In this document: in pieces, positions 4,624 to 25,941 of the stretch
How the letters are laid out: every line of letters begins with the position of its first letter
Numbering within the stretch: position 1 is the first letter of the stretch
Source of the DNA: Cryomorpha ignava
Lineage (GTDB): Bacteria; Bacteroidota; Bacteroidia; Flavobacteriales_D; Cryomorphaceae
DNA: 36,362 nucleotides
Assembly (NCBI RefSeq): GCF_010686655.1
Contig: NZ_JAAGVY010000046.1
Location: 1-36,362 of the forward strand
Direction: 5' to 3'
Program-made: the position numbers and the translations under genes
Notes under the pieces: generated by a model
Databases searched by the model: none
Told to the model about the DNA's origin: nothing
What the model saw: the letters and a program-made list of their open reading frames with translations, nothing else

Positions 4624-5784
4624 ATGAAAATCGTTTTATTATCCCTATCGATTTTAGTATCAGCTTTTACTTTCGCTCAAAGTGGATGCGACGTCAGAAT
4701 TGCTGACACATTAGAATTTCAACAGCTGGAAGCGGCAATGCAAATGCCCCAAACAGCATCAAGATCAAATTGTAATACCCTTCGGGTAGTTGTACACGTG
4801 GTGTATGACGGAGCAATGGATAATCTGTTTTACAGTGGACAGATTACTCCCGAGCAGGTAAAGAGTCAAATAAGAATTACAAATCAGTTTTTTGCCAACG
4901 ATTCGCTTATGCAAAACGAAGGCGCTGCTCTGGACTATCAATTAAAACTCGCGGAGTACGACCCCGAAGGTAATCCCACTACCGGAATAATTTACCACGA
5001 CGGCCACGAACTTTGGGGAGACGCATGGAGCAATTACGGATTGAAGAATAATAATGTAAATGCTATTTCGGCAGGCACGCTTACAGAGGCATTGAGCTGG
5101 GGCGAAGATGCGAACGGAAAGAAATACCTTAATTCTTATGTTGTAAGCAGCATAGATGGAAATATAGGCGGTGGCGTTCAGGCATATGCCTACTTTCCCA
5201 CGACAAGCATCGTCTATGCCAATTATAATTTATACAACGCATTTGGTGCAGAACAACTCGAGGAGGAGTATGATCAAAATTTCAATTTAAAATCATATAC
5301 CGATCTTGGCTATACCTGGACCCACGAGTTACTTCACAACTTTGCCGTTTTTCACACTTTTCAGGGTCAGAGTTGCTCTGAAGAGTCCAATCCATTAATC
5401 CAGGGAGACCGCGTGGCAGATACAGCTCCGCAAACACAGGGCTCCGGCTGCAGTGGGGCTTGTGGCGACATAAGCTATAACGTGATGGATTACCTTAGTC
5501 AAAGCTGCAAAACCCTTATTACCCAGGGACAGGCCGATAGGGCCGCGAGCGCAATCGAAAACAGCTTGATTGACTTTTTGGTGTGCGATGAAGAAGAAGA
5601 TGGTGATGATTGCGCAGACAAAACAAGCGACTTTAATGGTGATGGAGTAACAAACCTACTTGATATCAGCCTCTTTAGCCAGAGCTTTGGATGCTCGGCC
5701 AGCAGCAGCTGTTACGATTTTGTTTATGATCTAAATTGCGACGGGAATATTAATCTTTTAGATTTTTCGCTGATAGCGTATTAA
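4624..5784 (+). CDS. Secreted M43-like zinc metalloprotease with dockerin-like repeats
   Basis: A 386-residue protein with a Sec signal peptide (about residues 1-19, ending FTFAQ). The zinc motif is HELLHNFAVFH at 234-244, giving three His ligands and catalytic Glu235, followed by a Met-turn NVMDY at 286-290. This pairing is typical of metzincins, best matching the pappalysin/cytophagalysin M43 family, although the usual Gly of HExxHxxGxxH is Ala241 here. Paired cysteines around 250-300 fit an extracellular enzyme. The C terminus has two Ca-binding-like repeats of dockerin type, DFNGDGVTNLLD (336-347) and DLNCDGNINLLD (369-380). The protein stops six residues after the second, shorter than a full repeat. 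No type IX sorting domain is present, so its route out is unclear. A strong hairpin terminator follows. Confidence 0.8.
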   Translation: MKIVLLSLSILVSAFTFAQSGCDVRIADTLEFQQLEAAMQMPQTASRSNCNTLRVVVHVVYDGAMDNLFYSGQITPEQVKSQIRITNQFFANDSLMQNEGAALDYQLKLAEYDPEGNPTTGIIYHDGHELWGDAWSNYGLKNNNVNAISAGTLTEALSWGEDANGKKYLNSYVVSSIDGNIGGGVQAYAYFPTTSIVYANYNLYNAFGAEQLEEEYDQNFNLKSYTDLGYTWTHELLHNFAVFHTFQGQSCSEESNPLIQGDRVADTAPQTQGSGCSGACGDISYNVMDYLSQSCKTLITQGQADRAASAIENSLIDFLVCDEEEDGDDCADKTSDFNGDGVTNLLDISLFSQSFGCSASSSCYDFVYDLNCDGNINLLDFSLIAY

Positions 5785-13110: not shown

Positions 13111-13809
13111 ATGAATAAAGTTGTGGCAAATGCCAAAGAAGCAATAAAAGGAATAGAATCTGGAATGACTTTGATGCTGGGCGGTTTTGGCCTTTGCGGA
13201 ATTCCTGAAAATTGTATTTCTGAACTTACTAAAACGGATATTAATAATCTAACTTGCATTTCAAACAATGCCGGTGTCGATGACTTTGGCCTTGGTCTTT
13301 TATTGAGAAAAAATCAGATTAAAAAAATGATTTCTTCATACGTAGGCGAAAACAAGGAATTTGAGCGCCAAATGCTTAGTGGAGAGCTTGAAGTAGAGCT
13401 CATTCCGCAGGGCACCCTTGCAGAAAGATGCCGGGCGACAGGTGCAGGAATTCCTGCTTTTTTTACTCCTGCCGGTTATGGTACTGAAGTAGCCGAGGGA
13501 AAAGAAACGCGCGAATTTGACGGCAAAATGTATGTGCTTGAACAAAGATTTGACGCCGATTTTGCCATCGTCAAAGCCTGGAAAGGAGACACAGAAGGGA
13601 ATTTAATTTTTAATGGCACCGCCCGAAATTTTAATCCACTTATGGCTACTGCCGGAAAAATTACCATTGCCGAAGTCGAAGAACTGGTTCCGGCAGGTGA
13701 ATTAGATCCCAACTGCATTCATACACCAGGCATATTTGTACAGCGCATATTCGAAGGCAAAAATTACGAAAAGCGTATTGAGCAACGCACTGTGAGACCA
13801 CGTGAATAA
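13111..13809 (+). CDS. scoA: 3-oxoacid CoA-transferase subunit A
   Basis: A 232-residue alpha subunit of succinyl-CoA:3-oxoacid CoA transferase, which moves CoA between succinate and acetoacetate in ketone-body and acetoacetate use. Family motifs are clear: the glycine-rich [19 protein letters not shown] near the N terminus, [55 protein letters not shown], and the closing [10 protein letters not shown]. The catalytic Glu is on subunit B, which normally lies directly downstream. Here scoB begins 2.4 kb away, beyond a glycosyltransferase gene and a pair of repeats. It follows the penicillin-binding protein by 12 bp and precedes the glycosyltransferase by 24 bp, so it is probably co-transcribed with both. 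The two subunits should still form the enzyme. Confidence 0.93.
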
Positions 13810-13833: not shown

Positions 13834-15621
13834 ATGACACAAATCCTTAACCGAAACATTTTTGCACTTACCGCTATTCTGGTTTTTATTTATCTAATAA
13901 TCAGAAGCATCACTGTACCCATTTCGCACGACGAAGCCGCTACTTTTTTCCATTATATCCAGTCAAATAAATTCGTTCCCTACTACACGCTTTGGGATGC
14001 CAATAACCATTTCCTGAACTCGCTTTTGGTCTATCCCCTCTATAAAATTTTTGGAAGTGATCTTTTCTGGCTTCGACTTCCAAATCTCATTTTGTTTCCG
14101 CTTTACGCCCTATTCGCTTATAAGCTAACCACCGAGATCAAATCAAATCTGGTTCAACTCCCTACGTCAATTGCACTAATCACAGCTCCTTTTCTTATTG
14201 AGTTTTTTGCCCAATCACGCGGTTACGGACTTAGTTTTGCATTCCTACTCGGAGCCATTTACTATATCAATGCTTTCATAAAATCAAAATCGCCACGCCA
14301 CCAGCTACTTATTTGGGTTTTTATTGCCTTAACGGTAATGGCCAATATGTCATTGATGAATACTTTTCTAATGATTCTCGGCGGAATTTTCCTACTGCTC
14401 CTTTTTAAAGGGAAGAAGAATTTCAGCCGCTCTAACTGGGTTGTCTTTGTGATGTTTGGTCTCATCCCTTTTGTCTTTGCCACAATTTACGCACTCGACA
14501 TGAAGGAAATGGGGCTGCTCTATTATGGATTGGGCGATGGATTTGTCAAAGTAACGGTAAAAAGCCTTTTTCGATTTGGCTTTGACACAGAATCGATGAC
14601 ACTTGCGTGGATGGCTACAATTATTGGGCTTATCGCCTCCGTATCTCTTATCGCCGCATTTGCGCGTAAGCATTTTAATTTTGCCAATGCGGGTATGATT
14701 GCAGCCGTTTTCCTTTTGGGAAATGCTTTGGGATCAATACTTCTGAACTTTATGATGGATGTAAACTTTCCCGAAGACCGGATAGCCATTTATTTCCTTC
14801 CACTATTTATTCTCACTTTTGGGTATTTCGTAGACCATGTTTCCACAAAATACCGCAAGTTTAAGTGGACTGTCGTACTTTTAGTCGCTTTCCCAATTAG
14901 CATGTTGGCCCAGCTCAATCTTGGTTACACCCTCGGTTGGGTTATTTATCCGGTGTCGATTGATGCGTATGATTACTTTAATGCCGAACGTGAAAAAAGT
15001 GACACCCCTTTAATAATAAGCGGCGACCGGCTCTTGTCTATGAGCTGGGGCTACCACAATGTGCGCGCCGATATAATGGGCGTTCCTTTTGCCGAAGACT
15101 GGCGCGATACATTTCACCTTTCAGATTATATTCTCTGCCATCCCATGAATTGTGTCAAAACCGAAGCTGATTACGATTTGGTTTTTGAAGATGAGAGCAA
15201 CATGAAAATTTACAAGCGCAAAGCCGATCTAAACCTTACTCCGATTTTTGAACTCGACTCTACGCTTTACTTCAATGACGATTTTGAGTATCACAATATT
15301 TTGGATACCTATAATGATACCGTAATCAGAAATGCAAATATTCTCGAAGTGGAAATTAAGGTCGCTTCTCCCAATATTCCGTTGAATACCGAAATAATCA
15401 TTACCAGCTCAAACCCTACCAACAATAAGCTTTACTACGATATTGTTCCATTGAAATGGATTCAAAACAGTTGGGACGGACAAACTTTACACTTTCGAAG
15501 ACCAGTGTCGCTACCAGCAGAAAGTGAACGCTTTGTTGTTTATTTTTGGAATATCGATAAGGTGCAGCAGGAAATTACTGTTATAAATGTTCGCTTGTAC
15601 CATGGAGAAGTTGTGGAATAG
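13834..15621 (+). CDS. Polytopic GT-C/GT39-like glycosyltransferase
   Basis: A 595-residue integral membrane protein with around ten hydrophobic segments in the first ~390 residues, then a soluble C-terminal region of about 200 residues. Directly after the first helix comes SHDEAATFF, with Asp33 and Glu34. Such an acidic pair in the first outer loop is typical of GT-C enzymes of the ArnT/PMT type, where it acts as catalytic base or metal ligand. These enzymes take sugar from a polyprenyl-phosphate donor on the outer face of the inner membrane. The overall pattern (helix 2 near LLVYPLYKIFGSDLFWLRLPN) fits glycosyltransferase family 39. Donor and acceptor cannot be read from sequence. It sits between scoA and scoB, an unusual place, 24 bp behind scoA. 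Confidence 0.75.
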   Translation: MTQILNRNIFALTAILVFIYLIIRSITVPISHDEAATFFHYIQSNKFVPYYTLWDANNHFLNSLLVYPLYKIFGSDLFWLRLPNLILFPLYALFAYKLTTEIKSNLVQLPTSIALITAPFLIEFFAQSRGYGLSFAFLLGAIYYINAFIKSKSPRHQLLIWVFIALTVMANMSLMNTFLMILGGIFLLLLFKGKKNFSRSNWVVFVMFGLIPFVFATIYALDMKEMGLLYYGLGDGFVKVTVKSLFRFGFDTESMTLAWMATIIGLIASVSLIAAFARKHFNFANAGMIAAVFLLGNALGSILLNFMMDVNFPEDRIAIYFLPLFILTFGYFVDHVSTKYRKFKWTVVLLVAFPISMLAQLNLGYTLGWVIYPVSIDAYDYFNAEREKSDTPLIISGDRLLSMSWGYHNVRADIMGVPFAEDWRDTFHLSDYILCHPMNCVKTEADYDLVFEDESNMKIYKRKADLNLTPIFELDSTLYFNDDFEYHNILDTYNDTVIRNANILEVEIKVASPNIPLNTEIIITSSNPTNNKLYYDIVPLKWIQNSWDGQTLHFRRPVSLPAESERFVVYFWNIDKVQQEITVINVRLYHGEVVE

Positions 15622-15644
15622 GGTTGCTTTCTTGAGTTTTCCAC

Positions 15645-15659
15645 ACCCTTCGGGTTTTT
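15645..15659 (+). terminator. Weak candidate terminator
   Basis: A 4-bp stem ACCC-TTC-GGGT followed by four more T lies 23 bp after the glycosyltransferase stop. The T run is good but the stem is short, so termination would be partial at best. Confidence 0.3.
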
Positions 15660-15698
15660 ATCATAACCACTTGCTTATTAACGTCTCACGCGCCCCCA

Positions 15699-15845
15699 AT
15701 CCGCTCCGCTGGGCATGCGCCCTGCGGCCATTATTATTCAATTAAATTTGGATAAGTGTTACCGTAGAAATATAATATCTCTAGAGTGAAAACATTTTCC
15801 GCAGGGTACCTACCGCTGCGGAGCGCACACCTCTATACGACTTGG
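15699..15845. repeat. GC-armed intergenic repeat, copy 1
   Basis: This 147-bp element recurs exactly 170 bp further on with no indels and 22 mismatches by my count (about 85% identity). GC-rich arms flank an AT-rich centre. CGCTCCGC (15702-15709) pairs with GCGGAGCG (15818-15825), and inside it CCCTGCGG (15720-15727) pairs with CCGCAGGG (15799-15806). Each arm can also fold on itself (GGGC/GCCC on the left, CCGCAG/CTGCGG on the right). No coding potential is seen. It resembles a palindromic REP-like or MITE-like element, but I do not recognise a known family. Confidence 0.7.
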
Positions 15846-15868
15846 CCACCGCTCCGACAATCAGTGCG

Positions 15869-16015
15869 ATCCGCTCCGCTGGGCTTGCGCCCTGCGGCCA
15901 TAATTATTCAATTAAGTTTAGATAATTGCTGCTTTAGAAATGTACTATCTCTAGTTTGAAGATGTTTTCCGCAGGGTAAATACCGCTGCGGAGCGCACAC
16001 GACTAAATGACTTGG
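15869..16015. repeat. GC-armed intergenic repeat, copy 2
   Basis: Second copy of the 147-bp element, in direct orientation at a constant 170-bp offset. Nearly all differences fall in the AT-rich centre and the right flank. The pairing arms (15872-15879 with 15988-15995; 15890-15897 with 15969-15976) are identical to copy 1. That conservation suggests selection on the stem or recent tandem duplication with a drifting loop. About 170 bp of plain AT-rich sequence follow before the promoter-like box of scoB. Confidence 0.7.
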
Positions 16016-16184
16016 TCGTCAACACTTTATCAAATTCGTCAATGATAGACTTAGAACAAGATGAGAAATTGATTTCCAATAAAATTTACTGACAATAATA
16101 TTTATTCTAGAAATGAAGAGCACCGATTTTATTATAACCGAACTAACCTTCAAATTCCAAAACCAAAAACAAAACTGGATTCCT

Positions 16185-16192
16185 TATCTTTA
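16185..16192 (+). promoter_or_regulatory. scoB promoter-like -7 box
   Basis: TATCTTTA differs from TAnnTTTG only at the last base and lies 19 bp before the scoB ATG. It would give scoB its own promoter, needed now that repeats and a possible terminator separate it from scoA. No clear -33 TTG is seen. Confidence 0.35.
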
Positions 16193-16211
16193 CAAATTAA
16201 AATAAGCGAAG

Positions 16212-16874
16212 ATGGGATTAACAAAAGATCAAATTGCAAAACGCATTGCCCGCGAATTGAAAGATGGCTATTACGTGAATTTGGGAATAGGCATTCCCAC
16301 CCTTGTTGCCAATCATGTTCCCGAAGGAATTTCAGTTGAATTTCAATCCGAAAATGGAATTCTGGGAATGGGTCGTTTTCCGCTTGACGGAGAAGAAGAT
16401 GCCGATTTGATAAATGCCGGAAAGCAAACCATTACCGCCAAGCCCGGCGCTTCGTTTTTTGATTCTGCCATGAGTTTTGCAATGATACGCGGACAGCACG
16501 TTCAGCTTACCGTATTGGGTGCCATGGAAGTTTCTGAAAATGGAGATATTGCCAACTGGAAAATTCCCGGCAAAATGGTGAAAGGCATGGGTGGCGCCAT
16601 GGATTTGGTTTCATCTGCCGAAAATATTATAGTTGCCATGCAGCACACCAACCGCGAAGGCGAAAGCAAATTGCTTAAAAACTGTTCTCTTCCGCTTACA
16701 GGCGTGGCTTGCGTAAAACGCATTGTAACAGATCTTGCGGTACTTGATATCGATCCAAATGGCGGGTTTATTCTTAGAGAGATTGCACCGGGAGTAACTC
16801 TTGATGAAGTGAAGGCAGCAACTGAAGGAAAATTGATTATTCCAGATGATGTGGTGAATGTAGAGGTGGAGTGA
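16212..16874 (+). CDS. scoB: 3-oxoacid CoA-transferase subunit B
   Basis: A 220-residue beta subunit of succinyl-CoA:3-oxoacid CoA transferase, partner of the scoA product. The N terminus has LKDGYYVNLGIGIPTLVANH, followed by the catalytic block EFQSENGILGMG; the Glu of SENG carries the CoA thioester intermediate. Other family marks are GGAMDLV, a conserved Lys-rich NCSLPLTGVACVKRI, and the C-terminal ILREIAPGVTLDEVKAATEG. Length is normal. Although its partner gene is 2.4 kb upstream, the sequence shows no decay, so the enzyme is probably working. A separate weak promoter is predicted. The next gene, a membrane glycosyltransferase, starts 70 bp later on the same strand. Confidence 0.93.
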   Translation: MGLTKDQIAKRIARELKDGYYVNLGIGIPTLVANHVPEGISVEFQSENGILGMGRFPLDGEEDADLINAGKQTITAKPGASFFDSAMSFAMIRGQHVQLTVLGAMEVSENGDIANWKIPGKMVKGMGGAMDLVSSAENIIVAMQHTNREGESKLLKNCSLPLTGVACVKRIVTDLAVLDIDPNGGFILREIAPGVTLDEVKAATEGKLIIPDDVVNVEVE

Positions 16875-16944
16875 AATCAGAATTCCTTTGATAAGATTCA
16901 AAGTTTTGAAATTAACACTTTTCAGCAAAAAATAAAAAATCATC

Positions 16945-18750
16945 TTGACCAGTAACTTCAAACTTAACCGAAGCACCCTTGTCGCACTTCTTGTAATCGG
17001 CGCATTTCTAATTTTTGAAACTAGCCGCGTAATAGGTGATGGAGGCGCTATAACGTGGGATGCCTTTGGTTTCTATTACTATTTGAAACTCATTTTTGTA
17101 GATCATTCTTTAATTTTAGAAAGCTTAGACTCTATAAAGCCGATTTTCGAAAAATACGATCCGAGTACCACACTTTATCAGTTTACAACCCTTCCCAATG
17201 GTAGAATAATAGTGAGGTACCCCATCGGTCAAGCCTTATTATATCTGCCATTCTTCATTATAGCCCATATTACAGCTTTGCTAAGCGATTTTCCCGCCGA
17301 TGGGTTTTCGAAACCTTATGATATTGCTATGCGCATTGGTGGCCTGATATATCATTTTCTCGGTTTCTATTTTGTGGGCAGAATACTCCGATTACACTTT
17401 AGTGATAAGGTAGTTGGAATTACCCTTGTAGTTCTATTTTTCGGTACCAATGCCTTCAGCCTTTTTATGGGTTCAGCGCTATCTGCTCAAGGATCGTTAT
17501 TTTTTCTGGTTGCATGGTTTATTTGGCTGGTTGACCGTTATTTTAAAGAAAAGACAAATGGCCTAATCATCGGCGTGGGATGTGTGTTTGGACTGATTTG
17601 CCTGAATAGGCCTACTGATTTTGTCACACTTATTCCCGCCATTCTGTGGCCGCTTACTATTCCGGGTTTATTCCTAAAAGAAGAAATTAAAAGTTTTTTC
17701 AAACGTAAAAAGCAGGTTTTTCTTCTTATAGGAACGATTGTGTTTTTCGCATTTATTCAATTCGGTTATTGGAAATATGCAGGTGGCTCTTGGTTTATAG
17801 ACAGCTACGGTAATCCGGCTGAAGGATTAGACTTCTTGAGCCCGCATACCATTCCATTTTTATTTAGTTTCAAATCGGGATGGCTGGTTTATACACCATT
17901 GATGATTTTAGTTCTCATTTTTCTTATTTACAAATCTTACAAAAAGGATAGAACGATGCAGGTTGTTCTGATTTACACCGTCCTTTTTATATATCTGGCA
18001 TCTTCATGGACTAACTGGTGGTATGGCAATGGATTTTCGCAAAGAGCAATGGGTCAGGCCTATGCCTTATTGAGTATCCCTCTGGCAGGATTAATTAATT
18101 TTGCATTCTTTAAGAAACACAAATTTTCATTTTTGCCGGCAATACTTATTCCCGTGTTTGTAGTTTTAAGCATTTGGCAAACCAAACAATTTCACAATGG
18201 AGTTCTCACTGGTGAAACTGTTACTGCAGATTACTACTTTGCCAGCTTTTTTGATCTGTACCAAAATCCGGAAAATAAAGATTTGCTGGGGTTTAGCCAT
18301 TACGACATATATATGCAACCTAACTATAATTTGCCCGATGGATATGAGCTCGCCAACACAGTTGAACTTGCAGTTGATGAAGAAAATCAGAACCTTGCTG
18401 GTAATGAGTGGCCAAAAGGTTTTTCGATACCCTATAAAGATTTGTCTGATGCCGATTATTCCTTCATTCTTTTTTCAGCAGTTTTTGAGGGATCTCCCCC
18501 CAAAAGCGCTGTACTCGTCACCACTTTTAATCACAATGGGGCTTACGGCTATCAGGGCAGAGACTTTCCTCAAGTATTAGTTGATACCAATTTTGTGGCC
18601 AATCTTTATACTGCTACATCAGTGTATCTTACTCCTCCAATGCGCAGCACCAACGATAAATTTAGTGCATACCTTTGGAATAGAGGTTTGGAGGCTGGAA
18701 TCTTAAAAGAATTAAGATTAGAAGTTTTTGTTAAATCTGAAGATAATTAG
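16945..18750 (+). CDS. Polytopic GT-C-like membrane protein
   Basis: A 601-residue membrane protein with about ten to eleven hydrophobic helices, then a soluble C-terminal part (from about residue 430). A TTG start is chosen because an in-frame TAA lies 9 bp upstream and no ATG occurs before about residue 125, well inside the helices. After the first helix comes DGGAITWDAFGFYYYLK, with Asp39 as candidate base. Next is the block GRIIVRYPIGQALLYLPFF, which recurs in a family of putative membrane glycosyltransferases. SWTNWWYGNGFSQRAM, in a later loop, also recurs in such proteins. I therefore read it as a GT-C enzyme using a polyprenyl-linked sugar; substrate and acceptor are unknown. The next gene, of similar kind, starts 41 bp later. 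Confidence 0.7.
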   Translation: MTSNFKLNRSTLVALLVIGAFLIFETSRVIGDGGAITWDAFGFYYYLKLIFVDHSLILESLDSIKPIFEKYDPSTTLYQFTTLPNGRIIVRYPIGQALLYLPFFIIAHITALLSDFPADGFSKPYDIAMRIGGLIYHFLGFYFVGRILRLHFSDKVVGITLVVLFFGTNAFSLFMGSALSAQGSLFFLVAWFIWLVDRYFKEKTNGLIIGVGCVFGLICLNRPTDFVTLIPAILWPLTIPGLFLKEEIKSFFKRKKQVFLLIGTIVFFAFIQFGYWKYAGGSWFIDSYGNPAEGLDFLSPHTIPFLFSFKSGWLVYTPLMILVLIFLIYKSYKKDRTMQVVLIYTVLFIYLASSWTNWWYGNGFSQRAMGQAYALLSIPLAGLINFAFFKKHKFSFLPAILIPVFVVLSIWQTKQFHNGVLTGETVTADYYFASFFDLYQNPENKDLLGFSHYDIYMQPNYNLPDGYELANTVELAVDEENQNLAGNEWPKGFSIPYKDLSDADYSFILFSAVFEGSPPKSAVLVTTFNHNGAYGYQGRDFPQVLVDTNFVANLYTATSVYLTPPMRSTNDKFSAYLWNRGLEAGILKELRLEVFVKSEDN

Positions 18751-18791
18751 AACACCTTATTTCGTGATCGACACTTGTTCTAAAGTATAAC

Positions 18792-20345
18792 ATGAAAGCC
18801 TTCCAAAATAATATTCCGTTTCTTTCTGCCATACTCGTAGGTCTCATTGCTATGCCAATCGCCCTACTGGGTTTTGACTTTTCTTTTTATCCCGGCGATT
18901 TAGGCGACGCGCGCTTCAATATCTATTTGCTTGAGCATGGATATCAGTTTTTATTGGGAAAGCACGAATGGTATTGGAACGCCCCTTTTATGTATCCGGT
19001 TGAAAACGTGATAACAGTCTCTGATAATTTGCTGGGTACTGTTCCGGTTTATTCGGTGTTTAGGGTTCTTGGCTTCGACACATTCACATCCTTTCAACTC
19101 TGGTTTATAGCGGTGTTCGCGCTTAATTTTACCGCCGCATATTGGCTATTCAATTGGTTATTTAAAAATAGGTATGCAGCAGCTGTGGCCGCTTTTATAT
19201 TCGCATTCTCCATCTCGTCACAATCCCAGATGGGGCATGCCCAAGTTTTTGCAAGATTCTTTATTCCACTTGCTTTTCTTTTCATTTTTAAATTCGGAAA
19301 AGAGTTGAAACCCAAATATTTTTTTCTTGCTGCACTTTGTGTTGTAGGTCAATTCTATTGCGGTATTTACTTGGGAATGCTAACCATTTTACCTTTCGTA
19401 GCAGTTACACTCACTTTAGTAGCGTGGCGATATAAGCTACTTCTTCAAAACGTAAAAAAGCTGAAGTGGTGGGGATTTATGGTAGCTTCAGTCATAGTGA
19501 ATGCCGCCTTGCTATTCAAATTAATGTGGCCATATTATCAGCGGTCTTTAATCTCTCTACCCGATTCTTACGAAAATATATTCGTCACTCTTCCCAAATT
19601 TATTTCTTACGTTTTTGCCAAAAACGGTAGCCTGCTCTGGAAAAGTTTAGAGGCAATTGCTACTGACATTCCTGCTTGGTATAATCATCAGCTATTTCCA
19701 GGCATATTTGTTTGTATTTCGCTCATGGCAGCATGTTTTCTTCTATTAAAATACAAGGAGAAAAATCGATTGGAAATAAGTCTGCTGTTTATCGCCGGCC
19801 TTGTCACCTTGCTCTTCTTTATTCGCGTTGACGATTTTACACTTTATCAATACATTTATAAAATTCCGGGTTTTCAGTCCCTCCGCTCCTTAACCCGAAT
19901 AATCGGAATTGACCTTCTCTTTTTTGGACTTGTGGCAGGAATATTTGTAAAATATTTGACTGAAAAATTCCCAAAAAGGCAGATGGTGATTTTTCCATTG
20001 CTTCTGGGCTTTATAGTGCTCGACAATTATGTTGATCCCAAAATGACCTATAGATCTCCCAAAAATATTGCTCGCGAAAGGGTTGATGCTTTAGTCGCAA
20101 AAATGAATCATTTGCCTGCCGGAACACTCATATCGTATGAACCCGAAATTGTAGACAACGGCGCTGCCATTCAGCTCGATGCCATGCTTGCATCACAGGC
20201 ATTAGAACTGAAATGCCTGAATGGTTACTCTGCTACTTCACCGGCAACCTTTACGCCTTATTGGATTGAACCCAATGCAGAAAACCGGGGGTACTGGCTT
20301 GAAAGTGTAGGGATTGATCCTGACTTGCGGGTGGTTATAAAATGA
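18792..20345 (+). CDS. Polytopic GT-C-like membrane protein
   Basis: A 517-residue membrane protein with about ten hydrophobic helices and a soluble C-terminal stretch of around 110 residues. The first loop reads YPGDLGDARFNIYLLEHGY, with Asp36 and Asp39 placed as in GT-C glycosyltransferases. KHEWYWNAPFMYPVENV follows, resembling loops of YfhO-like and related membrane enzymes. A late loop carries KIPGFQSLRSLTRIIGI, also seen in that broad group. The exact family is uncertain; a lipid-linked-sugar glycosyltransferase is the best reading. It lies 41 bp after the previous membrane protein and is followed by a 139-bp gap with a good promoter, so it probably ends its transcription unit. Confidence 0.65.
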   Translation: MKAFQNNIPFLSAILVGLIAMPIALLGFDFSFYPGDLGDARFNIYLLEHGYQFLLGKHEWYWNAPFMYPVENVITVSDNLLGTVPVYSVFRVLGFDTFTSFQLWFIAVFALNFTAAYWLFNWLFKNRYAAAVAAFIFAFSISSQSQMGHAQVFARFFIPLAFLFIFKFGKELKPKYFFLAALCVVGQFYCGIYLGMLTILPFVAVTLTLVAWRYKLLLQNVKKLKWWGFMVASVIVNAALLFKLMWPYYQRSLISLPDSYENIFVTLPKFISYVFAKNGSLLWKSLEAIATDIPAWYNHQLFPGIFVCISLMAACFLLLKYKEKNRLEISLLFIAGLVTLLFFIRVDDFTLYQYIYKIPGFQSLRSLTRIIGIDLLFFGLVAGIFVKYLTEKFPKRQMVIFPLLLGFIVLDNYVDPKMTYRSPKNIARERVDALVAKMNHLPAGTLISYEPEIVDNGAAIQLDAMLASQALELKCLNGYSATSPATFTPYWIEPNAENRGYWLESVGIDPDLRVVIK

Positions 20346-20421
20346 TTTTCCAATTGAAATTTATTCGCTCGATTCACATGACTGCCAAGTTTATAACCCC
20401 AAAAAATTACCCCAAAATCAA

Positions 20422-20455
20422 TTGCGTGAATCAGATAAATAAAATAATACCTTTG
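20422..20455 (+). promoter_or_regulatory. Bacteroidota-type promoter before the GT2 gene
   Basis: TTG at 20422-20424 and TACCTTTG at 20448-20455, 23 bp apart, match the -33/-7 consensus (TTG and TAnnTTTG), with spacing at the long end of the accepted range. The start codon is 29 bp downstream. It would drive the GT2 gene and the membrane protein after it. Confidence 0.6.
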
Positions 20456-20484
20456 CGGTTTGGTTCTATAAGTAGAAATACCCT

Positions 20485-21201
20485 ATGAAACAACTGTCTA
20501 TCGCAATACCTGCTTACAATGAGGGAAGAACGATTCACCTTATTCTCGACAAGATAAAAGCTGTTACGCTCGATCAGGGTATTCAAAAAGAAATAATAAT
20601 TGTGAATGACGCCTCAACTGACAATACTGAAGAAGCTGTTCAAAATTATGTGAGTCAAAATCCTGAACAAAATATTCAGTTTTTTAACCAGCCTAAAAAT
20701 ATGGGTAAAGGTGCGGCATTGCATCGTGCAATAAAAGAAGCAACCGGAGATTATATCATAATTCAGGATGCTGATCTTGAGTACGATCCCCGTGAGTACA
20801 ACCTTTTATTAAAACCTATTTTGGAAGGTTTTGCAGATGTTGTTTATGGCTCTCGTTTTATTGGCGGAAACCCCCACCGCATCCTTTTCTTCTGGCATAG
20901 CATTGGAAATAAAATGCTTACCACAATTTCTAACGTGCTAACAAATCTGAATCTTACAGATATGGAAACTTGCTATAAATTAGTGCGTGCCGATATGCTA
21001 AAGAGTTTAGCTTTAAAGGAAAACAGATTTGGCTTTGAGCCAGAAGTTACCGCCAAGCTTTCGCGAATCGAGAAAATTAGATTCTACGAAGTGGGTATTT
21101 CTTATTACGGACGAACCTATGAGGAAGGCAAGAAAATAGGCTGGAAAGATGGTTTTAGAGCGATTTACTGTATCCTGAAATATAACTTATTCTCAAAGTA
21201 A
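20485..21201 (+). CDS. GT2 polyprenyl-phosphate sugar synthase, DPM1-like
   Basis: A 238-residue GT-A fold glycosyltransferase of family 2. The nucleotide-sugar site is shown by [11 protein letters not shown] (5-14), [10 protein letters not shown] (39-48) and [13 protein letters not shown]. The metal site is DADLEYDP with DAD at 95-97, followed by [10 protein letters not shown] and the [10 protein letters not shown] motif typical of dolichyl-phosphate mannosyltransferase. It has no C-terminal membrane helices, as in the soluble DPM1 type. The likely reaction is transfer of a sugar from a nucleotide sugar to undecaprenyl phosphate on the cytoplasmic face, giving a donor for GT-C enzymes. Several such enzymes are encoded on both sides. 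Sugar identity (mannose or other) cannot be read. The next gene starts 18 bp downstream. Confidence 0.87.
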
Positions 21202-21219
21202 ATTTGCAATTCACTGTGT

Positions 21220-22845
21220 ATGTTTGGTTCCAAACTTTCTCGGCAAAAGCTTGAATTGACTGAGAAAAAACCAGTTGACTTTCTTCTAAAGAATGAAAAA
21301 TCCATTTTTTTAGCAGTTTGCATCTTTACCCTTTTACCAGTCTTCGCAGGACAATATTTCGTAACGCTAGATGGACCCTCGCATTTGTATAATGCGAAAA
21401 CCTGGAGCTTTCTTGTATTTGATTCCAATTCATTTTTACATGAATATTACAAGATTAACGCATTGATGCCAAATGTGATAAGTCATTTTGCTCTCTCTCT
21501 ATTACTCACCTTTCTGCCAGCATTTATAGCTGAAAAGATATTGGTCGTTACCTATGTCTTTCTATTCGCTTATTGCTTTAGATACCTTTTAAAATCATTT
21601 CGCGAAAGCAATATTCTACTCACTTATCTCATTTTTCCATTTATCTTTTCATACCCGTTTATATTGGGTTTTTACAACTTCAGCTTTGGCATTGTTCTTC
21701 TCTTTTTCACAGTTGGTTATTGGCTTAGGAATAATCACAAGCCTTTTTCATGGTCTTTTGCTGTAGGATTAACTGCTCTGGTTTTTCTAACCTACACAGC
21801 TCATCTTGTACTTCTCGGCATCCTACTGATGATGCTTGCGTTGGATATTGCTATTGCCTTTTTTCATTCTGCGAAAGTAAAACGGTACGACCTGATTAAA
21901 AGCCGTATAATTTCAGCGATCATAGCATCTATATTGCCTTTGTATTTTGTTTATCAATATTTCGCTGACCGCCCCATTTCAAAATCTATTTTTAACTCCC
22001 TCGATATTTCTACTTTACTAAAGCATCTTTTTGATCTTAGACCAATTATAGCTTTTAACACAGTTAACGAATTACCCTATTCCCGGATTATTGTTTTCGT
22101 TTTTTTAGGCCTGATCATAATCAGTCTAGTTAATCGATTTCGAAATAAAACCAATAATCAAGATAAACCAATCAGTATTCCTGAGAAATCCAAACGACTC
22201 TTTGCCGGTTTTGCTCTACTAACTGTTATTATGCTATACTTTTTTCTGCCCGATTCAGATGGTCGTGGCTCTTATGTCTCTCTTCGACTGGGATTGCTGA
22301 TTTTCCCTTTTTTAATACTCGTTTTATCCCTTCTGAAGTTTTCTCGCCCTACCCTTATTGTTTCTATTTCAATAATATTGTTGGCACACTTTGTTCTCGT
22401 GGCACAATATGCAGTGGTAAACATGCAGATAAATCCTTCCATTCAAGAAATATCAGAAGTATCTGAATTGATAGCGCCAAACTCGGTTGTGACAGTACTA
22501 AATGAAACTGATATATGGTTTATGGATCATTACTCAAGTTATGCAGGGCTGGAAAAGCCGATGGTCATTCTCGACAACTACGAAGCTGATTATGGATACT
22601 TTCCTGTAATTTGGAATCATGATTCTTTCCCACACCTCACCATCCATGAAAATGAAACGGGCGAAATACCTTGTCTCAATTTCAGATCTAACCTCAGTGG
22701 AAAAAGCCTGCCTGTCAATTATTTGCTTATAATTGGCAACTCAATAAATTTCTCTGAAAGTTGCCCTGAACTGTATCGCTTTATATCATCAGAAGATGTA
22801 GAAGCACTTCACCATTCAAGTCAGTATAGTCTGTATAAGCTTTAA
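21220..22845 (+). CDS. Polytopic GT-C-like membrane protein
   Basis: A 541-residue membrane protein. A charged N-terminal stretch precedes the first helix (about 28-46), after which comes VTLDGPSHLYNAKTW with Asp51, placed like the acidic residue of GT-C enzymes. Eight to ten helices follow to about residue 395, then a soluble C-terminal domain of about 145 residues. GFYNFSFGIVLLFFTVGYWL and AVGLTALVFLTYTAHLV are membrane segments. I do not recognise a named family; a membrane glycosyltransferase is inferred from topology, the acidic loop and its place 18 bp after a donor synthase. Its stop is only one base from the stop of the convergent gene, leaving no room for a separate terminator. Confidence 0.62.
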   Translation: MFGSKLSRQKLELTEKKPVDFLLKNEKSIFLAVCIFTLLPVFAGQYFVTLDGPSHLYNAKTWSFLVFDSNSFLHEYYKINALMPNVISHFALSLLLTFLPAFIAEKILVVTYVFLFAYCFRYLLKSFRESNILLTYLIFPFIFSYPFILGFYNFSFGIVLLFFTVGYWLRNNHKPFSWSFAVGLTALVFLTYTAHLVLLGILLMMLALDIAIAFFHSAKVKRYDLIKSRIISAIIASILPLYFVYQYFADRPISKSIFNSLDISTLLKHLFDLRPIIAFNTVNELPYSRIIVFVFLGLIIISLVNRFRNKTNNQDKPISIPEKSKRLFAGFALLTVIMLYFFLPDSDGRGSYVSLRLGLLIFPFLILVLSLLKFSRPTLIVSISIILLAHFVLVAQYAVVNMQINPSIQEISEVSELIAPNSVVTVLNETDIWFMDHYSSYAGLEKPMVILDNYEADYGYFPVIWNHDSFPHLTIHENETGEIPCLNFRSNLSGKSLPVNYLLIIGNSINFSESCPELYRFISSEDVEALHHSSQYSLYKL

Positions 22846-22846
22846 G

Positions 22847-24430
22847 CTATTCGTCTTTCTTTTCCATTTTATAAATGGTGCAAATCGTATTTTTACCTCT
22901 GCGAATGGTATAAACATCCATCCCCCAATAGAAAAGTGGATTTTCTGGATGCCATCTGTAATTTGTTATGTAATAGTCATCCTTGGATTTATCATTAGTC
23001 CAAAAAGTCATGTTTAATCTGGCTCGTTCGTCGGGTTTTAATAATGCAACATTTATTTCGGGAGTTGGGTTTAGCGCTCCTACATTGATAATAGCCGACG
23101 TATCGTTTTCTAAAATATAGCGCAGAGCCTCTACATTTGCTATACCCCAATAGTCCATTTCAAAGTGCCTGCGGATGTATTCAGATTCTTTAAACTCCAA
23201 TAATGAATTGAAATACACATTTTGATACGGGAAATAATACACGCTGACACCTACAAAGTAGAGCAAGGTAACGTAGGTAAACCCTTTTAGCCAATTAAGT
23301 GCCGCAAGTTTATGCAACGCAAAAATCATGAGCAACACGAAGCCTGCATACACGAAAAAGATCTGTCTCCAGCCATCGTACACCACTGAGTGGAAATAAA
23401 TGACAGCTAGAAACGGAGCAATAAAACAAGCAGCGTAGGCCAAATTATTTCTCGTAGTTGTGTTTTTAAGATATTGTAATGGTTTCTTGACAAAGCCAAA
23501 TAGAACGAAAGCGCCGCCGGTTATTCCCAAAAACAAAAAGAGAATAGGCGTAGTAATAGTAAACCATTCAGGAAGATAATACCAGGGAAGCGCATCCGCC
23601 TTTATCATATCTCCATTGAGTAGTACTGTTCCGTTCCATCTAAAATCCCGCATATTATTAAATGCTTCGAGGAAATTATCAATAGGTGCCGGCCATAAAA
23701 ACGGCCAGGTAGCATATAATGTCAGCAAGCTTACAGAAACAAACGTGATGAGATACAGGCTATTCCATTTCCAGCGCTTTTCTACAATCATGTCGAGAAG
23801 TAAAAAAGCGGGTACAATGCACAATAGCATTACTCCCATAATGCGCAGGTTAATTGTAATACCAACTGATATAGCAAGAAGCAGAAAGTATATCCACCGC
23901 TTTCGTTTAAACGCTAGAGCGAGAAAATAAAACGAAATAAAAAACATGGTAAGAAAAGGTACATCCTTGGTGTTAATGAAAGAATGAGCGTAAAGCCTGG
24001 GGTGTAGCACAATCATTAGAAATGCCACTGCGGCGAGCATTTTATTCTTGTACAACAAGTCGACCAGAAAAAAACAAAACAGCGCCCCGATCAAAAAGAA
24101 AATATGTGTAGCCAGATGTCGAAAGAGATAAATATCGTGCGAATCTGTTAAGCCAAGTGCTTTCTCGCCTATAATAAGTACGATTTCATACGCTGGACCA
24201 TAATCCTTATCGCTCCAGGTTAATAGACCCTCGTCATCGTGAAACATATAGTAATAATTCACTTGTCCGGTTCCGCGTTGCATCGGGTCATCCCAAGACA
24301 AGCCGTAGCTATCGTAAGTCAAAACACCAATAATCAGTGTTATTCCAAATAGAATAAGGCCTAAATATTTGTAAATAGAACCCCATGTCGGCGATGCGAA
24401 AAACGCTGGTCTCTGAAACATAGTACCCAT
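22847..24430 (-). CDS. GT39-family (PMT-like) membrane glycosyltransferase
   Basis: A 527-residue protein with about eleven hydrophobic helices. After the first helix comes GLSWDDPMQRGTGQ, with the Asp pair 47-48 typical of GT39. The next large loop has YGPAYEIVLIIGEKALG and then FRHLATHIFF, a conserved Arg-His pattern of PMT_2-type enzymes. HPRLYAHSFINTKDVPFL and NLRIMGVMLL are further strongly conserved blocks. It should transfer a sugar from a polyprenyl phosphate donor on the periplasmic side, to an unknown lipid or protein. It is the third gene of a minus-strand unit: methyltransferase, GT2 donor synthase, then this gene only 6 bp later. That order pairs a donor maker directly with a donor user. 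Confidence 0.8.
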   Translation of the reverse strand: MGTMFQRPAFFASPTWGSIYKYLGLILFGITLIIGVLTYDSYGLSWDDPMQRGTGQVNYYYMFHDDEGLLTWSDKDYGPAYEIVLIIGEKALGLTDSHDIYLFRHLATHIFFLIGALFCFFLVDLLYKNKMLAAVAFLMIVLHPRLYAHSFINTKDVPFLTMFFISFYFLALAFKRKRWIYFLLLAISVGITINLRIMGVMLLCIVPAFLLLDMIVEKRWKWNSLYLITFVSVSLLTLYATWPFLWPAPIDNFLEAFNNMRDFRWNGTVLLNGDMIKADALPWYYLPEWFTITTPILFLFLGITGGAFVLFGFVKKPLQYLKNTTTRNNLAYAACFIAPFLAVIYFHSVVYDGWRQIFFVYAGFVLLMIFALHKLAALNWLKGFTYVTLLYFVGVSVYYFPYQNVYFNSLLEFKESEYIRRHFEMDYWGIANVEALRYILENDTSAIINVGALNPTPEINVALLKPDERARLNMTFWTNDKSKDDYYITNYRWHPENPLFYWGMDVYTIRRGKNTICTIYKMEKKDE

Positions 24431-24436
24431 GTTAGT

Positions 24437-25171
24437 TTATTTGTAGTGTTTTCTAATTTTCAATAGATCTATTGGAATTCGGATAATGTCTGCTTTTGAA
24501 ATCTTGGAATCGCCCATTTCAGTCCACGCATCTAAAGGCATCTCTAAAACGAGAGAATAAACTGCTTCTTTGCCTACCTTTTGTTTTAAACGAATAAGTA
24601 TCTCCACATCAAAAAGCCATTTTGTCATAAAAGGCTTTTCAATTATACCGTTTAAAAAGTCTGGTTTAAACACTTTGGCTCCACATTGCGTATCGTAAAA
24701 TGGCAGGTTTATTGAAGCGCTAATCAATGTTGCAAAAAATCGTCCAATGATATGTCGCTTCACAGAGCGGTCAATATTAGAGCCCATTTTCTTCATGCGC
24801 GAACCAAAAACTGCCTGATAAGAGCCTCTTAGCAATGTATTGTTGAGCTTCTTGAACTCTTCAAGCGGTGTTGCTAAATCGGCATCGAGAAAACCTATTG
24901 TTTCAAATTCATCCCTACTTTTTAAAGCGAGAAGTCCTGCACGTACTGCTTCGCCTTTGCCCTTGTTTACATCCAGATTGAGAAGTGAAAACTGAGTGGG
25001 GTTCTTTTGGCAGAAAGCCGAAACTACCACTGCCGTTTTATCTGTACTCCCATCGTTAACAAAGCAAATGTGATACTCATTATTCGCAGAAGCGAAGGCC
25101 TCAAAACTTGCTAAATCAATCCGCTGCGCCTCGTTGTAGCAGGGAATTACGATTCCTGTTTTTGCTGGCAT
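24437..25171 (-). CDS. GT2 dolichyl-phosphate-glucosyltransferase-like (ALG5 type)
   Basis: A 244-residue GT2 enzyme from the ATG at 25171; another ATG four codons earlier (25183) is possible. Motifs: TGIVIPCYNEAQRIDL, CFVNDGSTDKT, NKGKGEAVRAGLLA, the metal site GFLDADLATPLEEF, AVFGSRMKKMGSN and the family-specific YDTQCGAKVFK. This set fits the ALG5/dolichyl-phosphate beta-glucosyltransferase branch, different from the DPM1-like enzyme encoded at 20485. No membrane helices are seen. It is expected to load a hexose onto undecaprenyl phosphate. Its start overlaps the end of the methyltransferase gene by 25 bp (37 bp with the longer start), and the GT39 enzyme follows after 6 bp, so the three are tightly coupled. 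Confidence 0.85.
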   Translation of the reverse strand: MPAKTGIVIPCYNEAQRIDLASFEAFASANNEYHICFVNDGSTDKTAVVVSAFCQKNPTQFSLLNLDVNKGKGEAVRAGLLALKSRDEFETIGFLDADLATPLEEFKKLNNTLLRGSYQAVFGSRMKKMGSNIDRSVKRHIIGRFFATLISASINLPFYDTQCGAKVFKPDFLNGIIEKPFMTKWLFDVEILIRLKQKVGKEAVYSLVLEMPLDAWTEMGDSKISKADIIRIPIDLLKIRKHYK

Positions 25172-25941
25172 ATTGTATAGCATGAAAGTCCCGAACCACG
25201 AATACCCAGACTGCGTAATCCTTTAAAAAAATGGTAGTCTAAAAGCAATGTGCTATATATAAGCTTATCAACCAGAAATACCGGCTTATAGCTGCTTATT
25301 CCCTTTTGGGCCTTTTCATCGTTGCCTATGTTTAATCTTTTCTGAATATAACGAGCAGAAACTAATGAAAAGAAAAAATAACCGCTCTTGAGTGATTTTA
25401 AGTTGCATACTTCTAAAGTCTTCAAAAGTGTCGATACCGTGTGTCTTCTAAAATGCTTCAAGAAAACATCGTGCGCACTAAAAAGGCTTTGATGAGCAGG
25501 TACAGTAATCAAAACCTTTGTTTTTGAATCAATTACATCTTGTGAAATTAAGGCTTTTAGAAACCCCTTGTCATCTTCAATATGCTCTATTACATCTAAA
25601 AGAAGAATAATATCAGGGCTGAAATTGGGGTTAGCAAGCTTGTACTCATCTTGAGAATCGTAAAGAGAAATATTTGCATCGCCAATCTGTTTCATCAGCT
25701 CCGCCTTTATCTCAGGCGTATATTCGATGTCGATACAGTGCACTTTCAATTCCGGAAAAATCCGCGTAAGCTCATATACCATATAGGCATCGCCCGATCC
25801 GATATCAAGTATATGCAGGCTGCTCGTCTTCTTTCCAAAAGTTCCTTTCAGCATGTCGGCGATTACTTTAACTCGTGCACGCTCCCAGGGATGTCGCTGT
25901 TCGCGCCAATTGGGATTATTATTTAATTCGCAAATGTCCAT
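25147..25941 (-). CDS. Class I SAM-dependent methyltransferase
   Basis: A 264-residue protein with a Rossmann-type methyltransferase core. Motif I is LHILDIGSGDAYMVYEL (Gly-rich loop 46-52), followed by the acidic strand end VHCIDIEY that binds the ribose of SAM. Motif IV is ILLLDVIEHIEDDKGFL, with Asp116, as in UbiE/UbiG-like enzymes. ITVPAHQSLFSAHD and HFRRHTVSTLLKTLE are typical of methyltransferases found in sugar and surface-glycan clusters. The substrate is unknown; its place ahead of two glycosyltransferases suggests a lipid-linked sugar or glycan end (inference). It begins the minus-strand unit and has its own promoter-like box. Confidence 0.82.
   Translation of the reverse strand: MDICELNNNPNWREQRHPWERARVKVIADMLKGTFGKKTSSLHILDIGSGDAYMVYELTRIFPELKVHCIDIEYTPEIKAELMKQIGDANISLYDSQDEYKLANPNFSPDIILLLDVIEHIEDDKGFLKALISQDVIDSKTKVLITVPAHQSLFSAHDVFLKHFRRHTVSTLLKTLEVCNLKSLKSGYFFFSLVSARYIQKRLNIGNDEKAQKGISSYKPVFLVDKLIYSTLLLDYHFFKGLRSLGIRGSGLSCYTICQQKQES

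Follow-up and report, generated by a model that had tools for sequence, protein, structure and literature searches.

We analysed a 36,362 bp window of Cryomorpha ignava DNA, which is one entire contig (NZ_JAAGVY010000046.1) out of the 149 contigs of a 5.0 Mb genome, and followed up a block at positions 13834 to 25941 that an original prediction had presented as a glycosylation pathway built from five polytopic proteins, two soluble GT2 glycosyltransferases and an S-adenosylmethionine (SAM) methyltransferase. The plus strand carries, in order, holB, PSP1, gldH, pbp1A (our name for a penicillin-binding protein with transglycosylase and transpeptidase domains), scoA, GTC1, scoB, GTC2, GTC3, GT2a and GTC4; after GTC4 the minus strand carries GTC5, GT2b, MT and the gene of a GsiA-like ATP-binding cassette (ABC) ATPase. 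GldH and a Por_Secre_tail protein fit a placement in Bacteroidota. All genes claimed for the block are there as intact open reading frames (ORFs), although the claim had overlooked an intact scoB inside it. The features are listed below, with protein lengths in amino acids (aa).

13111 to 13809, plus strand: scoA, coenzyme A (CoA)-transferase subunit A (PF01144, E 1.1e-77), shown for context as the upstream half of the pair split by GTC1
13834 to 15621, plus strand: GTC1 (P0001), predicted GT-C-type transferase of 595 aa with D33-E34; 49/199 genomes, PMT_2 matches in the family, profile link to GTC2
16212 to 16874, plus strand: scoB, 3-oxoacid CoA-transferase subunit B (TIGR02428, 329.1 bits, cut-off 243.55), inside the block and not a glycosylation gene
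16945 to 18750, plus strand: GTC2 (P0002), predicted GT-C-type transferase of 601 aa with an invariant D39 and, as called, a TTG start; 95/199 genomes, PMT_2 matches in the family
18792 to 20345, plus strand: GTC3 (P0003), polytopic protein of 517 aa with a GDLGD motif, possibly GT-C, no Pfam family; 9/100 genomes
20485 to 21201, plus strand: GT2a (P0006), soluble, DPM1-like, predicted polyprenyl-phosphate-hexose (probably mannose) synthase of 238 aa (PF00535, E 2.8e-32; PDB 5mlz)
21220 to 22845, plus strand: GTC4 (P0004), probable GT-C-type transferase of 541 aa with an invariant D51, no Pfam family; 29/199 genomes, profile link to GTC1
22847 to 24430, minus strand: GTC5 (P0005), predicted GT-C transferase of 527 aa with D47-D48 (PMT_2, 32.2 bits, cut-off 26.1; AlphaFold2 model)
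24437 to 25183, minus strand: GT2b (P0007), soluble GT2 of 248 aa from the GtrB/ArnC/DPM1 group (PF00535, E 1.1e-20); 10/199 genomes
25147 to 25941, minus strand: MT (P0008), SAM methyltransferase of 264 aa (PF13489, 28.7 bits, cut-off 27)

GTC1 sits between scoA and scoB and splits the pair, 24 bp after scoA and 590 bp before scoB, a gap (15622 to 16211) that holds no ORF of 90 aa or more. The remaining plus-strand gaps are 70 bp (scoB-GTC2), 41 bp (GTC2-GTC3), 139 bp (GTC3-GT2a) and 18 bp (GT2a-GTC4). MT and GT2b share 37 bp on the minus strand, where GTC5 begins 6 bp beyond GT2b. The plus-strand unit (scoA-GTC1-scoB-GTC2-GTC3-GT2a-GTC4) and the minus-strand unit (MT-GT2b-GTC5) meet at 22845/22847, where GTC4 and GTC5 are separated by 1 bp; because these genes converge, there must be at least two transcription units. 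We read them as two candidate glycosylation modules, A on the plus strand and B on the minus strand.

The two soluble GT2 enzymes were expected to be of distinct type, and both indeed fall in PF00535 with different best solved relatives. GT2a, labelled DPM1-like, kept that label: its best solved relative is dolichol monophosphate mannose (DPM) synthase (PDB 5mlz, E 3.3e-17, residues 3-233), identifying it as a full-length DPM-synthase homologue and, by sequence, a putative polyprenyl-phosphate-hexose synthase whose hexose is probably mannose. For GT2b, labelled ALG5-like, the label was not borne out: its best solved relatives, over partial length, are sll0501 (E 6.7e-8), which we take to be GtrB-like, and the undecaprenyl-phosphate formamido-arabinose transferase (4.5e-7), presumably the enzyme named ArnC; DPM synthase ranks lower among its matches, and ArnC is also among those of GT2a. 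Both enzymes would class, on these matches, as GT2 polyprenyl-phosphate-sugar synthases. MT passed its Pfam cut-off, in line with the SAM methyltransferase foreseen, and no solved structure matches it at E 0.01. In two relatives (L170 and L175) a protein with 26-29% identity to MT also lies beside GT2a.

Each of the five polytopic proteins had been said to carry an acidic residue or pair just after its first helix, and these residues are present at the predicted positions and conserved in aligned homologues. D33-E34 of GTC1 is kept in 29 of 30 rows and D36 and D39 of GTC3 in 7 of 8, the remaining row ending short of the site in each case; D39 of GTC2 is kept in 27/27 homologues, D51 of GTC4 in 28/28 and D47 of GTC5 in 5/5, with D or E at position 48. 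All five fit the trait that passages of PMC5836110 give for the GT-C superfamily, namely 8-13 transmembrane helices and, in a loop outside the cytoplasm, conserved acidic residues. Each of the five has 10-11 hydrophobic segments by a simple hydropathy count that does not predict membrane side.

GTC5 was the clearest member. Besides exceeding the PMT_2 cut-off, it yielded an AlphaFold2 model from six sequences (predicted local distance difference test (pLDDT) 66.6, predicted template modelling score (pTM) 0.69) with 16 Foldseek matches at E 0.001 or better; Foldseek rows 1-27 are GT-C enzymes or chains of oligosaccharyltransferase (OST)-containing complexes, and the first receptor appears at rank 28. 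In VIA-align, Z runs from 22.0 to 11.2 over ranks 1-45 and is then 4.7 at rank 46. Ranks 1-45 comprise oligosaccharyltransferases, Pmt1-Pmt2, Pmt4, ALG9, ALG12, ALG6, DPY19, ArnT, Emb, Aft, PimE and glycosylphosphatidylinositol (GPI)-mannosyltransferase chains, the rest being chains of OST-containing or GPI-transamidase complexes, of which the matching GPI-transamidase subunit is presumably GT-C-like. As modelled, GTC5 has a GT-C fold. The presence of ArnT here (Z 19.3) and of ArnC among the GT2 matches would suit an ArnT-like modification of lipid A or another outer-membrane lipid, with one GT-C per modification; ArnT does not, however, stand out among the GT-C matches of GTC5, and no arn-type sugar synthesis genes occur among the 28 window ORFs scanned; we hold such a lipid modification to be very improbable.

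For three further proteins, sequence profiles support a link to GT-C. Members of the GTC1 and GTC2 families match PMT_2 at E 0.05 or better in 8 of 30 cases (best 5.7e-6) and 11 of 27 cases (best 4.5e-7), respectively, and GTC2 also matches NF047440 (the LA_3751/LA_3752 family) at 37 bits, below the cut-off of 200. Profile comparison joins GTC1 to GTC2 at 98.7% over 477 columns, most of their length, and GTC4 to GTC1 at 96.2% over 204 columns, and GTC5 shares in the profile links of these three. None of the 28 GTC4 family members matches PMT_2; five unrelated models match one member each, including DUF6541 (0.0086) and EpsG (0.015), the latter a family that we take to be polymerase-type. The polytopic control families F4, F8 and F9, from the look of their sequences presumably acyltransferase-like, LptF-like and unknown, respectively, reach at most 3% against any of the five. 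GTC3 is only plausible as a GT-C protein: the sole Pfam match among its eight family members is one weak DUF5490, its profile links are weak (68.8% over 57 columns with GTC4, 64.4% with the GTC5 family, 15% with GTC1), and its AlphaFold2 model from a single sequence had a pLDDT of 40.6 and was not used. The predicted GT-C membership thus stood for GTC5 by model; GTC1, GTC2 and GTC4 are putative members on profile evidence, and GTC3 is a plausible one. When the five polytopic families were searched against the sequences of solved structures, nothing meaningful matched (a hit for GTC3 at E 0.34 was spurious). The YfhO Pfam model was matched by none of the window GT-Cs, and the viral contigs searched held no relatives of GTC3 or GTC4; these two would be candidates for new GT-C families. 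In genome G003 a GTC3 homologue is split into two ORFs in different frames (L022:1386-2874), either a broken gene or a sequencing error. GTC3 homologues in two other genomes (L015, L017) lie about 0.6 kb or less from phosphoglycerate kinase; the window also has pgk, about 12 kb from GTC3.

The cross-matching of hydrophobic families bears on whether this could be a conventional locus for O-antigen, capsule or exopolysaccharide, some of its polytopic proteins (GTC3 or GTC4, for example) being polymerases or ligases. Such a locus would account for the GTC4 member with the weak EpsG match and for a GT-C-like neighbour of GT2b in another genome with a weak Wzy_C match, yet the first-loop acidic residues are conserved, GTC5 models as GT-C, and none of the 10 ORFs scanned in and beside the block matches a family for Wzx, Wzy, polysaccharide export or the synthesis of nucleotide sugars; we hold this explanation to be highly unlikely. 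A standard O-antigen locus was rejected as the principal interpretation on the lack of any Wzx/Wzy match in the block in Pfam and NCBIfam scans, agreeing with the original prediction, which had seen no such gene.

To place the two candidate modules among relatives, we counted homologues in 199 genomes (100 for GTC3) and, across the phylum, in 296 genomes; all tallies count the window's own genome, and E-value cut-offs differed between the per-gene searches (E 1e-45 for GT2a). Among the GT2 enzymes and METHYLTRANSFERASE of the block, GT2a occurs in 113/199 genomes, GT2b is rarer (10/199) and MT rarer still (4/199). The polytopic proteins occur in 49/199 (GTC1), 95/199 (GTC2), 9/100 (GTC3), 29/199 (GTC4) and 4/199 genomes (GTC5). 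Identity to GT2a is 61-80% in 93 of the 112 other genomes with a match, one partial match being left out. A single pathway across the block, as had been proposed, was rejected on these differing distributions (GT2a in 113 genomes versus 10 for GT2b and 4 each for MT and GTC5) and on the convergent strands.

Across the phylum GT2a was found in 33/296 genomes, which bears on a wider role. Excerpts of a 2025 review (PMC12871550) describe the machinery that makes and attaches the Bacteroidota O-glycan core as unidentified, with core flippase, oligosaccharyltransferase and ligase undiscovered, have the core glycan start with mannose or another hexose, and advise seeking homologues of eukaryotic O-mannosylation; GT2a is a DPM-synthase homologue. 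The block could then be core machinery of general protein O-glycosylation in Bacteroidota, with GT2a making polyprenyl-phosphate-mannose and one GT-C acting in the periplasm to attach the first mannose to D-S/T motifs. The core is, however, said to be common to most characterised species, whereas GT2a reaches the fractions just given at E 1e-45 and the most widespread GT-C of the block 95/199 genomes. Other DPM1-like GT2 enzymes could stand in for GT2a; even so, a core role seems very unlikely to us, and its phylum-wide form was rejected as the principal interpretation on the 33/296 count. GT2a may still serve a lineage-specific periplasmic addition.

Returning to the two modules, several pairs of block genes lie close together in relatives far beyond the random-placement estimate. 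With linkage defined as lying within 5 kb in genomes holding both genes, own genome excluded, and chance figures assuming random placement in 3.3 Mb, GTC1 and GT2a were linked in 15/45 genomes (0.27 expected), GTC2 and GT2a in 19/77 (0.54 expected), GTC1 and GTC2 in 8/36 (0.31 expected), GTC4 and GTC2 in 3/16 (0.12 expected) and GTC4 and GT2a in 2/26 (0.12 expected); counts with GTC2 draw on 89 of the 95 GTC2 genomes. The conserved linkage anticipated in relatives therefore holds for some pairs and fails for the whole, as no other genome of the 198 can hold the entire block, none having GTC5 and MT together.

The surroundings of GT2a were compared in 60 GT2a-centred stretches, taken for the most part from the top-scoring of the 112 other genomes that have GT2a and not drawn at random; GT2a was called in 59 of them, L202 giving none, and a GT2b homologue was labelled in none of the 60. 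A GT-C-like gene lies within 4 kb in 28 of the 59 loci, and scoA or scoB within 6 kb in 19. The commonest genes within 5 kb are scoB (18 loci), a PBP1-like penicillin-binding protein gene (17), scoA (14), GTC1 (11) and GTC2 (11). 'GT-C-like' takes in family F6 (L176, L187, L192, L197), three scanned members of which have no Pfam match, and motif-only proteins judged by eye. On the same strand and within 300 bp of the gene, a GT-C-like neighbour occurs at 19/59 GT2a loci versus 2/243 control genes (other soluble genes of 180-350 aa on the same stretches, counted on the widest definition); the 19 become 18 without one motif-only case and 14 without the four F6 members as well.

These counts speak to the possibility that the block is merely a permissive slot, in which GT-C genes gather between scoB and the ABC gene as harmless insertions and serve unrelated pathways with donors made elsewhere, so that no module A exists. 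The slot content is highly variable and includes genes without a glycosylation match, some secreted-looking by eye (G008, G003, G027); PMT_2 proteins are encoded at 4 further places in the genome, outside this contig; and 26/59 GT2a loci lack a GT-C-like gene within 4 kb as well as any sco gene within 6 kb. Set against this are the excess of close same-strand GT-C-like neighbours of GT2a over controls, even on the strictest count, and the occurrence of such pairs where no sco gene lies within 6 kb on the fetched stretch (for example L019, L168, L205, L208, L211). We regard a permissive slot as doubtful, while counting it the most serious competitor of the two-module reading.

In support of the two-module reading, the address of the block recurs while its contents change. 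The recurring order in relatives is pbp1A-scoA-(GT-C)-scoB-(GT-C)-GT2a, with a pbp1A-like gene upstream of scoA and gldH labelled further upstream only in some loci. Fifteen fetched loci from four families, f1, f2, f8 and f11 (L156, L192, L196, L197, L200, L201, L204, L206, L214, L227, L228, L230, L232, L233, L234), have GTC1 between scoA and scoB, either by itself or together with GTC2, and in six (L162, L183, L184, L188, L198, L207) the two sco genes are direct neighbours with no GT-C between them; loci were picked for holding homologues, so these numbers give no frequency of splitting by GTC1. The interval from scoB to the ABC gene differs in each of eight genomes compared, the window's among them, running from empty to its fullest state in the window. 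G006 has nothing there and G008 one secreted-looking gene; G003 has GT2a with unrelated genes, G017 a GT-C-like protein without a Pfam match plus GT2a, and G012 has GT2a, a PMT_2 protein and one more gene. In G027 the interval holds another gene besides GT2a and GTC2; G038 has GTC2, GT2a, a polytopic protein recognised by motif only and a second GT2, and the window has seven glycosylation-type genes.

The GT-Cs within 4 kb of GT2a belong to distinct families: GTC1, GTC2, GTC3, GTC4, a MORN-tailed PMT_2 family (L164, L170, L175), other PMT_2 proteins (L162, L168, L205) and F6. The MORN-tailed proteins (L164:6171-8069, L170:97-1989, L175:3209-5116) are PMT-clan GT-C proteins with C-terminal MORN repeats. 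GT2b shows a similar arrangement: in 6 of 9 other genomes the next gene, at most 4 bp away, encodes a GT-C-like polytopic protein. The following protein belongs to the PMT_2 family in L216, L217 and L220 (in L220 by clustering only, its own Pfam match being a weak Wzy_C) and to YfhO in L223, and is a polytopic protein without a Pfam match in L222 and L224; L219 has an unclassified polytopic protein of 993 aa, and L215 and L218 have none. A GT-C partner is thus encoded beside the GT2 gene in the window, at 19/59 GT2a loci (14 on the strictest count) and at 6/9 other GT2b loci. In the 3 other genomes with an MT match (198 searched), that match precedes and overlaps the GT2b match, as here. A search of genome contigs for GTC5 gave 4 loci out of 58 pattern matches; three of these have no other block gene at E 1e-4, and in the fourth, L011, GT2b follows directly after GTC5, the reverse of the window order.

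Two further loci touch on module B. At L215:6785-8635 (G180) a 616-aa polytopic ABC protein, a possible flippase candidate for the GT2b module, lies 223 bp from an MT-GT2b pair. Five consecutive polytopic genes at L013:2014-12189 comprise two GTC5 homologues flanked by three members of the F5 family, which profile-matches the GTC5 family.

We estimate a probability of about 0.6 that the block is a pair of multi-component modules for extracytoplasmic glycosylation, placed in the variable slot of a recurring Bacteroidota locus and with GT-Cs exchanged; the locus feature is real and its conservation partial, and its function we infer. In module A, GT2a would charge polyprenyl phosphate with a hexose, most likely mannose, at the cytoplasmic face, a flippase other than GtrA would turn the lipid-linked sugar over, and GTC1, GTC2, GTC4 and possibly GTC3 would transfer the sugar, in the periplasm, to a glycan or glycoprotein of the envelope, with a separate acceptor position for each enzyme. 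In module B, GT2b would make a second lipid-linked sugar for GTC5, and MT would methylate the sugar or the product. The GT2 enzymes would be the stable part and the GT-Cs would be exchanged between species, so that species may differ in the decorations they add.

This scheme follows an established logic, described in parts of PMC11127046, PMC11754754 and PMC5836110, in which a polyprenyl-phosphate-sugar synthase, a flippase and a GT-C act in turn to transfer a sugar outside. The window would fit two such synthase/GT-C pairs, and the pairing of GT-Cs with polyprenyl-phosphate-sugar synthases that had been predicted finds support in the sequence. As told in passages of PMC11754754, the Streptococcus mutans side-chain genes SccN/SccP and SccM/SccQ likewise form one cluster with two polyprenyl-phosphate-sugar synthases, two GT-Cs and a flippase not identified, and the synthases make opposite anomers that feed different GT-Cs, which would be a sensible model for the two GT2 enzymes here. 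The Scc system is, however, Gram-positive, with acceptor and sugar known (PMC11754754, in the same passages), whereas in the window a methyltransferase accompanies five polytopic proteins. The CsbB-YfhO operon of lipoteichoic acid glycosylation also joins a GT2 to an adjacent GT-C, according to part of PMC5836110, and a YfhO-family protein follows GT2b in L223, although no window GT-C matches the YfhO model. Passages of PMC11127046 describe three-component systems of GtrB, GtrA and a GT-C, or with a MATE flippase; in Gtr systems one enzyme links the donor to lipid, the GT-C acts in the periplasm, and the GT-C is the serotype-specific part. GtrA was not found in this genome, unlike in Gtr systems, so we liken the locus to a Gtr system in how it would work without classing it as one.

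Several observations weigh against the two-module reading. No flippase was recognised among the block ORFs in the Pfam scan, and GtrA (PF04138) had 0 matches at E 0.001 in the 99.85% complete genome while 7 of 14 control genomes match; a flippase of another family must therefore act. GTC1 and GTC4 were linked in 0/12 genomes (0.08 expected), and the genomes are related, so linkage counts are not independent events. The 26 GT2a loci without GT-C-like or sco genes, on stretches some of which end at contig ends, mean that GT2a occurs outside this setting too. One of 28 GTC4 members matches EpsG weakly, and the assignment of GTC3 rests on topology, motif and position, with its GTC1 profile link at 15%. 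In the profile comparison some presumed GT-C families do no better than the non-GT-C controls, so that it separates in one direction only. The sequence points to no particular acceptor, and acceptor and sugar are both predictions.

A broader extension would make GT2a the donor hub of modular periplasmic glycosylation in Bacteroidota, serving species-specific, exchangeable GT-Cs of at least six kinds (GTC1, GTC2, GTC3, GTC4, the MORN-tailed family and other PMT_2, two of them without a Pfam model) that together write a variable part of the general protein O-glycan or surface glycan outside the cytoplasm. We consider this a long shot; if true, it would run against the proposed model in which the glycan is assembled on the cytoplasmic side and then flipped. 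The locus of fragilis glycosylation (LFG) of Bacteroidota O-glycosylation similarly has variable glycosyltransferase content at a fixed locus, as outlined in sections of PMC12871550, but LFG starts with metG and wzx and ends with two conserved glycosyltransferases; the 28 window ORFs that were scanned include neither metG nor wzx, and no search for LFG was made elsewhere in the genome. The F. psychrophilum gene fpgA encodes a GT2 in a different gene context, according to part of PMC4293000. Among the papers listed by our literature searches, none was seen to describe this gene neighbourhood. The new elements are the recurrent pbp1A-sco address, the variety of GT-C families that surround stable GT2 genes, and two candidate GT-C families that no Pfam model covers. 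A conserved lipid-phosphate-hexose synthase, a recurrent address and changing GT-C neighbours together offer deletion targets for asking about periplasmic envelope-glycan synthesis in the phylum.

Two minor features of the window lie apart from these genes. A 147-bp element whose ends can form hairpins occurs twice in the gap between GTC1 and scoB (15699-15845 and 15869-16015), the two copies being 85% identical. It has 32 full or partial matches in the genome, both window copies counted, with single ends also found alone and grouped on contigs C30 and C48; it looks like a REP/REPIN-type dispersed repeat. At 4624-5784, beside a Por_Secre_tail protein, the window encodes a protein that combines a metallopeptidase domain (PF05572) with a type I dockerin domain (PF00404).

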